A DNA stretch of 64,000 nucleotides from Solemya velum gill symbiont (GTDB taxonomy: Bacteria > Pseudomonadota > Gammaproteobacteria > Chromatiales > Chromatiaceae). Below are positions 11,644 through 13,480 of this stretch, piece by piece. The stretch is from positions 1,054,001 through 1,118,000 of the forward strand of contig NZ_JRAA01000001.1 of NCBI RefSeq assembly GCF_000787395.1. The letters run 5' to 3'. Position 1 is the first letter of the stretch, and each line of letters starts with the position of its first letter. The notes beneath the pieces are model-generated. The model did not search any database, was not told the origin of the DNA, and was given only the letters and a program-made list of their open reading frames with translations. A program made the translations under genes and the position numbers.

Positions 11644-11722
11644 CCTTCGATGTGTACGGATAATTCCCATCACCATGCCGTATAATCGTGTGCTGGAAAT
11701 TTACAGCAGTGGTATTTGAACA

Positions 11723-12121
11723 ATGGACAGTAGCAGTATCGAGCTAAACGGCAGCGAAATATCAGGCGTCAGTGTCAGTGGCGACGAGGTGCGGGTACAT
11801 CTTGAGCGTGCCATTATCATCAAGACCATGACGGGTTCGGTTGAAAAGACCAAGTGGTGGCAGAAAGGGGATATCGTCTTTACCGGTGCATCGGTTGTTG
11901 AACCGCTGCCTGATGCCTTTGGTGAATGTGAAGGCGGTGATGTCGGGGAGAATATCTACACTTACCGCGACATGATTCCATTACCGCTTGAGAGTCGCGG
12001 GCAGGCAAGCTGTGATTTGATCATTGCAGGTCAGACACGCCATATCGTGGTGCAGGGAGAAACGATCAAACTCGAAATGGTCGAGGTGCCCAAGTATATC
12101 GAGCATATTCGCCCGGAGTAG
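11723..12121 (+). CDS. Hypothetical protein, 132 residues
   Basis: Not recognised. The product is acidic and soluble, with no signal peptide or membrane segment. It looks mainly beta (GVSVSGDEVRVHLERAIIIK; IIAGQTRHIVVQGETIKLEMVEVP), with two tryptophans in KTKWWQKGDIVF. The frame has an ATG at 11723, codon usage like its neighbours and no overlap with other genes, so it is probably real. It is followed closely by the convergent hemG. The preceding 190 bp hold only the short repeats noted above and no clear promoter. Confidence 0.7.
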   Translation: MDSSSIELNGSEISGVSVSGDEVRVHLERAIIIKTMTGSVEKTKWWQKGDIVFTGASVVEPLPDAFGECEGGDVGENIYTYRDMIPLPLESRGQASCDLIIAGQTRHIVVQGETIKLEMVEVPKYIEHIRPE

Positions 12122-12155
12122 CACGCGTTAATCCCTGGCATTCGCATGCATCTTG

Positions 12156-12683
12156 TTACATTTCGCCAACCATTTGCCCGAAGCTTTCAACTTTGTCCCA
12201 GTCTGTAAATTCAACAACAGCATTCGGGTCAGTGGGTCCTTTGGTCATATACATGATCAGGCGAATTATCGTGCGGTCCAATACGCCATATTTTGGATAG
12301 TCTATTTTTCCTGCAAAGATCCCTATCGCATCCGGTTTCCACGAAATACCGGACAGGAATTTCTTTACATAAGGATTGGTTTCAGGCGTGTTTCTGTTCG
12401 GTTTTCGCGCAACCACGCTGACTGAGAAAAAAACACTGGGTTTTTCTTCGAGGAGACTCTTGTATTCAGATACAAAATCAACAACTTCCTTTTGATGTTT
12501 TCCATACCGTATGCTGGCACCAATGATAATTTTATCGGATGCGTGTAATTCGTTCACGTCAGCTGAAGCAATAGGCAGAACTTTCACTTCATGGCCGACT
12601 TTTTCCAGTACTAACTGAATTCTTTGGGAAATCTTGATCGTGTGTCCATCAGTTGTTGAATATAAGATCAGGATATTATTCAC
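12156..12683 (-). CDS. hemG: Menaquinone-dependent protoporphyrinogen IX dehydrogenase (HemG-type flavodoxin)
   Basis: FMN protein oxidising protoporphyrinogen IX to protoporphyrin IX at the membrane, the penultimate step of haem synthesis. The 175 residues align through memory with E. coli HemG: ILILYSTTDGHTIKI (FMN phosphate loop), IIIGASIRYGKHQKEVVDFV, FFSVSVVARKPNRNTPETNP, IFAGKIDYPKYGVLDRTIIR and EFTDWDKVESF. The gene is alone on the minus strand, convergent with the unknown gene at 11723 and preceded by the large nested palindrome. Its base composition is a little more AT-rich than its neighbours, which may hint at separate acquisition. Confidence 0.93.
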   Translation of the reverse strand: MNNILILYSTTDGHTIKISQRIQLVLEKVGHEVKVLPIASADVNELHASDKIIIGASIRYGKHQKEVVDFVSEYKSLLEEKPSVFFSVSVVARKPNRNTPETNPYVKKFLSGISWKPDAIGIFAGKIDYPKYGVLDRTIIRLIMYMTKGPTDPNAVVEFTDWDKVESFGQMVGEM

Positions 12684-12768
12684 CTTGCCCTCCCGTACAC
12701 ATACAGCTCATTATTTCACACGATAGAATCCATCAATAGTTCTTTCACATAATAGCGGTAATAGGAGC

Positions 12769-13140
12769 AGACAAGGTTTTGTCGCCCGGCACCAACAGTC
12801 TCACTCTCCTGACCTCCGCCTGTTTCGTTCACGTGCCAGCGCAAAAAGAACTCGCTCCCCATGGTCGCTCAGACATCTTTTTGCTTCACCTGTCACGTGA
12901 CCGGGCTCCGCTCACGGAGAGTGAGACTGTTGGTGCCGAGCTCCCTGCAGGTGCAACACCCCTCTCTTTTCCCAACGTCAGCGGAGCCGTATTCACACCA
13001 CGGAGGAGAGCGAAAGTATGTTTGAGTGATCCGCGATCGCGAGTTTCTTTCGAGTCCGTGGGGTGGATACACAAGGCGTAGCGTGGTGGGAAAAGAGAGG
13101 GGTGTTGTACCAGTTCGGGCGACGATAAGAAGCCTGGTCT
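12769..13140. repeat. Nested palindromic element with two long hairpins inside an outer stem
   Basis: Three inverted repeats are nested. Hairpin A: 12787-12809 is a perfect 23-bp inverted copy of 12916-12938, and inner segments continue to pair imperfectly (TCACGTG with CACGTGA, GCAAAAAGA with TCTTTTTGC) down to a CCATGG centre at 12859-12864. Hairpin B: 12954-12973 is a perfect 20-bp inverted copy of 13088-13107, with further imperfect pairing to a CGCGATCGCG centre at 13032-13041. Outer stem: GTCGCCCG at 12781-12788 pairs with 13116-13123, and flanking AGACAAGG / CCTGGTCT (12769, 13133) pair with one mismatch. Together they would form a three-way junction of about 370 nt as RNA, or a double cruciform as DNA. 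Open frames across it are considered fortuitous. No transposase is nearby. It could be a MITE-like element or a structured RNA. Confidence 0.85.
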
Positions 13141-13204
13141 ATCCCCTGTCGGAACGGCGGCTGCCGTGTTTCTCGTGGTGATTGTTTCCGGAAAGGAGAG
13201 CGCA

Positions 13205-13235
13205 AAGATAAAGCCCGCAATTGCGGGCTTTATCT
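13205..13235 (-). terminator. Terminator downstream of the small coiled-coil gene
   Basis: A perfect 28-nt palindrome centred on AATT, with arms GATAAAGCCCGCAA, lies about 22 bp after the stop of the gene at 13256-13480 and is followed on the minus strand by TTTG. A second, outer pair CCGGAAA / TTTCCGG (13188-13194 and 13238-13244) brackets it. Confidence 0.75.
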
Positions 13236-13255
13236 GGTTTCCGGCAGCTGATGAA

Positions 13256-13480
13256 TCAGTTGCGGGTAGAACCAACGATTTCGTGTGACAGGTCAACAAC
13301 GCGGGTTGCCATCTCTGCGTACTTCTCACGGTAGTCAGCCAGCAGGCCTTCCTGTGAGTAGTAGTAGTCCTTGCCTGAAATGCCCTTGTCATGCTCGATA
13401 TCCATGAACTTCTTCTGCATTTCAATCATCTCTTCAACCAGCTTGTTCTTCTCGTCGATCAGTGCTTGCTTGTCACTCAT
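13256..13480 (-). CDS. Small coiled-coil hypothetical protein, 74 residues
   Basis: Not assigned to a function. The product is charged and almost entirely helical: MSDKQALIDEKNKLVEEM followed by heptad-like IEMQKKFMDIEHDKG, a short DYYYSQEG turn, and a second helix REKYAEMATRVVDLSHEI. No signal or membrane segment is present. The start is supported by a GAGT ribosome-site-like sequence shortly before the ATG, and a perfect-stem terminator follows, so it is an independent, probably well-expressed small gene. A small scaffold or regulatory protein is possible, but nothing in the sequence proves it. Confidence 0.75.
   Translation of the reverse strand: MSDKQALIDEKNKLVEEMIEMQKKFMDIEHDKGISGKDYYYSQEGLLADYREKYAEMATRVVDLSHEIVGSTRN

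Follow-up and report, generated by a model that had tools for sequence, protein, structure and literature searches.

Between a hemG-like gene and a short ORF in the genome of the Solemya velum gill symbiont lies a large palindromic structure, and the question raised by this locus is what kind of element it is and how its arms stay matched. We analysed it within a window of 64,000 nucleotides, to which positions refer unless a contig is given. The gene on one side (12156–12683, minus strand) matched Flavodoxin_5 in Pfam with an E-value of 6.7e-45, consistent with hemG. The ORF on the other side (13257–13480, minus strand, 74 aa) gave no Pfam match and belongs to a segment that shares 90% identity with the sister genome; a separate 15-bp palindrome at 13206–13235 on the minus strand, outside the element, is probably its terminator.

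Anatomy of the window element

The whole inverted dimer, delimited by its sequence and arms and including an outer bracket, spans 12769–13140. It consists of two hairpins, H1 (12784–12941, family orientation +) and H2 (12950–13111, family orientation −), separated by a spacer at 12942–12949; the covariance model described below matched H1 at 12815–12919 on the plus strand (C1:1066815–1066919) and H2 at 12973–13080 on the minus strand. The arms of H1 (12784–12809/12916–12941) are 26 nt long and those of H2 (12950–12974/13087–13111) 25 nt, each pair being 96% complementary, and within them lie perfect cores of 23 bp (12787–12809/12916–12938) and 21 bp (12954–12974/13087–13107), which exceed all other perfect inverted repeats of the window with gaps of up to 160. 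The longest perfect arm in 20 first-order Markov sequences of 64 kb was 14, and the two large palindromes reported in the first-pass annotation are thus real, although the second had been given as 20 bp at 13088 and is off by one (21 bp, 13087). The palindromic centres of the two hairpins, CCATGG and CGCGATCGCG, were as that annotation had them. It had also proposed folding the region: 12755–13150 was far more stable than its shuffles on both strands, at −201.7 kcal/mol on the plus strand (z −11.5) and −188.8 kcal/mol on the minus strand (z −8.5). The apical loops lie at 12849–12875 on the plus strand in H1 and at 13019–13044 on the minus strand in H2, ∼170 nt apart in a +/− orientation; the H2 loop is a variant in which ACTCAAACA replaces GCTCAAACA, with an inner GATC/GATC mini-stem.

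A third inverted repeat had been noted around both hairpins, and it exists in the sequence, with a left part at 12769–12788 (AGACAAGG, GTCGCCCG) and a right part at 13116–13140 (CGGGCGAC, CCTGGTCT), both given on the plus strand, which pair as 12769–12776/13133–13140 and 12781–12788/13116–13123. However, this bracket is the weakest part of the palindrome and conservation of its pairing is unsupported: a diverged second copy in the same genome (C1:940 kb) lacks anything that corresponds to the right-hand CGGGCGAC. That copy matched window positions 12779–12841 and 12976–13110 by BLAST, with an alignment extending to 13134, and it looks as if the middle of the dimer was lost. In the sister genome (G001), homology jumps from window positions 11716–12347 to 13142, just beyond the right bracket, with 3 bases between; the sister site is also without part of hemG, and it reflects a deletion or an effect of the assembly and does not qualify as a clean empty site. 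A decayed protein-coding gene was considered and rejected, because the ORFs over the element are mechanical and aligned copies keep the palindrome and the loop while varying in length and frame.

A dispersed family and its apical loop

H1 and H2 are two members, in opposite orientation, of one dispersed repeat family. This goes beyond the first-pass annotation, which had not seen that the two hairpins are one repeat or that their loop is common to several phyla; the searches for further copies that it had proposed, by BLAST and by covariance model, found copies in the own genome and, with the model, in the sister genome. The element as BLAST query gave 23 matches in its own genome (10 contigs, 2,702,377 bases). 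From 14 stretches around BLAST matches we left out the 4 weakest (L019–L022) and aligned the other 10 with H1 and H2; mean column identity among these 12 copies, collected without use of the motif, was 50%, and the columns of the apical loop were the most conserved. Of the 14 pairs in the consensus fold of this alignment, 8 showed a pair-preserving double change. With the truncated L013 left out, the remaining 11 copies were used to build a covariance model, which matched the own genome 18 times and the sister species 6 times, and 8 of 55 related genomes, own included, had matches at E ≤0.01; the other matches were 21 weak ones in G004 and 1 to 3 each in five further genomes, of which the G003 match and one of the two G035 matches were chance-like on reading. 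In four subfamily II loci (L026, L035, L038 and L053) the main hairpin has a further, short palindrome beside it, of the CTACTTTCTTGTGCTGACAAGAAAGTAG type; comparable short palindromes occur next to certain members of the family in other genera.

The most conserved part of the family is the apical loop AACTCGC(T..C)GCTCARACA, from which we derived the search pattern AACTCGCTN{1,10}CGCTCARACA; H1 fits it exactly. Scanning species genomes with this pattern gave at least 120 stretches, not a random sample and many of them from metagenome-assembled records, and among the matches listed were records named Proteobacteria, Bacteroidetes, Firmicutes, Nitrospirales and others. Constancy of the loop in these pan-bacterial sets follows from how the pattern was made, and the stems were scored separately: the stretches held 136 motif sites, 111 of them with sufficient flank, and at 98 of these 111 the closing stem had at least 8 of 12 pairs, compared with 6.7% of random positions. 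Read by eye, the stem sequences differ among taxa, and the motif sits at hairpin tips in other phyla.

Among 398 genomes from the phylum, 20, all belonging to the class of the window, had a strict short motif, AACTCGCTNCGCTCARACA, and none had its reversed control; carriers had up to 36 occurrences, and 15 of the 20 had at least two. The own genome has no match to this strict motif because the loops there are longer. With a slightly wider motif, 29 of 30 genomes, picked because each had yielded a locus, gave 618 occurrences summed, against 2 for the reversed control, and in the phylum of a Clostridium genome the motif was found in 6 of 198 other genomes (reversed control, 0 of 199). An origin in phages or plasmids was considered and rejected: across 2.9 million viral contigs the exact motif occurred in 87 stretches and its reverse in 1, and BLAST with two dimers from other genera hit 13 and 5 of 72,556 plasmid records; with the window element as query, no E. 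coli genome was hit. Because stems vary, the plasmid and E. coli searches do not gauge the whole family. On large replicons of Paraburkholderia (plasmid records H6–H12), at least 37–40 places match ∼50 bases of the right end of a Variovorax dimer, separate from the rest of that dimer.

Searches of the open literature by motif, flanking palindrome and topic, with subscription papers and figures outside their scope, found no description of the family, which may be known already under another name. The consulted text of the S. velum symbiont genome paper (PMC4287430) describes ICEs and insertion sequences, and the string ‘palindrom’ is absent from its main text.

Gene context and evolution of the arms

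Could the hairpins act as RNA? A structured RNA was among the proposals of the first-pass annotation, and in its fullest form such a reading would have the hairpin at transcript ends, co-transcribed with the upstream gene, where it would bind a protein, protect the mRNA or stop transcription. Strong folding and covarying pairs are what such a reading expects, and several features of gene arrangement, all scored on ORFs and not on annotation, point the same way. The 18 loci of the own genome occupy 9 convergent, 9 tandem and no divergent gaps by an ORF heuristic (H1 and H2 share one gap). In a wider set, where sites were mostly outside ORFs (9 were within), convergent gaps were enriched (22 of 69 sites versus 32 of 179 controls, p 0.025), a result obtained with spurious ORFs of the element masked, the unmasked test giving an odds ratio of 1.87 and p 0.051. 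Moreover, 41 of 59 single hairpins shared the sense of the gene whose 3′ end was nearest (p 0.004). A simple scan of 12600–13300 found 3 terminator-like sites, including one within H2 at 13026–13040; shuffles gave 0.7. Other features of the arrangement count against this reading: hairpins in tandem gaps of the own genome ran with the genes in 4 cases and against them in 5, the 12 +/− clusters were spread over 3 convergent, 7 tandem and 2 divergent gaps, and the depletion of divergent gaps (10 of 69 versus 40 of 179) was not significant (p 0.22). Rho-independent terminators resemble the family in being hairpins beside gene 3′ ends, but the present hairpins are much longer, are dispersed in copies with a near-constant loop, and have no family T run that we could see. 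Rfam offered no gathering-level family for the window, and 18 other carrier loci gave one tRNA only; a permissive search returned two sub-threshold matches, the better of which, a plant-virus tRNA-like element, scored 19.1 bits against a cut-off of 40.

The spectrum of changes between arms also bears on whether pairing is kept as RNA or as DNA. Isolated mismatches in 152 stems (those below a pairing score were excluded) comprised, in the loop sense, 61 G-T, 98 A-C (p 0.004) and 305 others, so that the loop sense, the one that fits gene orientation, showed no G-U preference and the opposite strand a small one. The A-C excess counts against an RNA of the loop sense and equals a G-U excess on the opposite strand; an RNA of that opposite strand may exist. 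When eight orthologous Marinobacter hairpins were compared with G225, 36 pair positions had exchanged a Watson-Crick pair for a different one and 46 had changed on one side only (10 G-T, 19 A-C and 17 others), the double changes being phylogenetically non-independent and taken from a simple pair alignment. An initial Marinobacter count (33 double, 101 one-sided and 10 double non-pairing changes) was discarded because one site had been mis-picked and alignments had slipped. Compensatory arm changes, the sign that would favour RNA, are thus plentiful, but 21 of the 36 paired changes have no route through G-U, and together with the Rfam result this leads us to regard the RNA reading as unlikely.

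Sites also come and go. Across 21 genomes of a single genus, apparently Marinobacter, one orthologous site carries the hairpin in 10, a stub by eye in 1 and no hairpin in 10, G452 among the last aligning poorly; several Marinobacter species without the repeat carry terminator-like hairpins with T runs there, as judged by eye. At another site, 4 of 5 close genomes have the hairpin and the fifth keeps part of one arm only, a remnant that probably reflects a deletion. A partly deleted hairpin was noted in G451. The presence/absence pattern could reflect gain or loss alike. The target-site duplications for which the first-pass annotation advised a search did not appear: no gain with such a duplication was observed, and the one close orthologue of this kind has a partial hairpin and not a clean empty site.

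Mobility and maintenance of the repeat

Absence of a target duplication bears on whether the element is a conventional non-autonomous transposon, a MITE or REP/REPIN whose transposase lies elsewhere or has been lost. The inverted dimers are of the kind expected from such an element: of 20 pairs of neighbouring motifs 150–450 nt apart in the set of at least 120 loci, with one mismatch allowed, 16 were +/−, 2 were −/+, and +/+ and −/− were seen once each. Five tandem units of ∼500–530 bp in G004 (L063:839–3475; spacing 497–530 bp) each hold two opposed hairpins, several full dimers elsewhere have inverted ends or short terminal palindromes, and in subfamily II the right end is common to 4 of 5 aligned copies, 4 of 9 loci having been dropped by a position and motif filter. 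The G004 units likewise carry short palindromes such as TTACTTTTACGGGTAAAAGTAA at their ends, and the neighbouring ORFs are cytochrome-like by eye. Yet the transposase search, which covered the Y1 family (PF01797), gave no match in the own genome, and to that extent the remark of the first-pass annotation that there is no transposase holds. Of 24 carrier genomes, drafts among them, 8 gave no PF01797 match at E 0.001, and these negative carriers include genomes in which the motif occurs 32, 44 and 53 times. When the longest ORFs between neighbouring hairpins were read by eye, only one Y1 gene was recognised, and Pfam confirmed it. It lies in G225 (L291:1813–3131) together with GTAGGTCGGATTA repeats between two opposed hairpins, which indicates that a second palindromic family shares that site and that REPs can neighbour these hairpins. 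We therefore consider a conventional transposon quite unlikely.

Comparison with known systems gives a similar picture. REPs of the GTAG and CGTC types, REPINs and BIMEs are, in the parts of the literature consulted, dispersed, extragenic, palindromic and often inverted dimers (PMC3733652, PMC3116915), and the present family is likewise multicopy, extragenic apart from 9 sites inside ORFs, palindromic and arranged in inverted dimers. REP stems, however, measure 5–13 bp (GTAG) or 8–9 bp (CGTC) and bear the tag of that name, according to the portion of PMC3733652 that was consulted, whereas the stems here are far longer, the loop is constant and in some carriers no Y1 transposase was found; no GTAG or CGTC tag was seen by eye at the feet of H1 and H2. 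Term searches of the REP papers, which describe short stems, did not find CTCGC or GCTCA in their main text. Bacterial MITEs, TIMEs included, are described in the consulted text of PMC10969869 and PMC4133298 as non-coding, multicopy and of inverted-repeat form, as the element is. Here, however, each half forms a long hairpin of its own whose loop is nearly constant, no transposase ends were recognised and no target duplication was seen. Among the earlier proposals a MITE-like compound hairpin nevertheless comes closest, since the element is a dispersed two-hairpin inverted repeat with more genomic copies; the bracket around the window element is not conserved in its second copy.

Genes between hairpins were mostly ordinary by eye, with no general cargo recognised. 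In G463, a decayed toxin-like stretch lies between two hairpins by eye, with no intact ORF seen. The one clear exception is G455 (L320, 409–1304, minus strand), where two near-identical direct hairpins flank Gp49-like and HTH_37 genes, a pair that resembles a captured toxin-antitoxin cassette, and the same site in other species has one hairpin, a pair or none. Such an arrangement would suit a recombination site of the integron attC type that captures cassettes through its folded hairpin. An attC site has paired core boxes at the foot of its hairpin. The constant part here is instead the loop, and G455 is a single clear case, so that we find the attC reading highly improbable.

The best explanation, which we hold to be evenly balanced between right and wrong, is that the window carries a +/− inverted dimer of a dispersed palindromic repeat that is kept palindromic as DNA, by copying from arm to arm. 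Its monomers are shown to be long hairpins in which a nearly constant loop (AACTCGC...GCTCARACA) tops a stem of varying sequence; scored with ORF heuristics, most sites avoid ORFs and modestly favour the gaps between convergent genes. A mutated arm would be corrected with the other arm as template while DNA is replicated or repaired, by hairpin or template-switch correction, and, as the spectrum of changes suggests, the arms would then drift jointly as Watson-Crick pairs. Copies would spread in genomes as monomers or dimers, to judge from the dispersed and tandem copies, and, on the pattern in one genus, may be lost by deletion within the palindrome. The loop is presumably contacted by a putative activity, supplied by the host or by the element, that recognises DNA in single-stranded or cruciform form, and a Y1/REP transposase is seemingly not required, none having been found in the 8 carrier genomes. 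A further step, that this is a selfish or structural DNA element of several phyla without a transposase of its own, recognised by its loop and relying on general replication and repair machinery alone, is tentative and on balance doubtful.

No name for a reader of such hairpins was found, and a near-constant loop on varying, well-paired stems in Gammaproteobacteria, Bacteroidota, Bacillota and others implies that this hairpin reader is widely shared. To our knowledge, hairpin-templated correction of arms is usually studied at single loci; the family offers natural replicates for measuring such correction between the arms of a palindrome.
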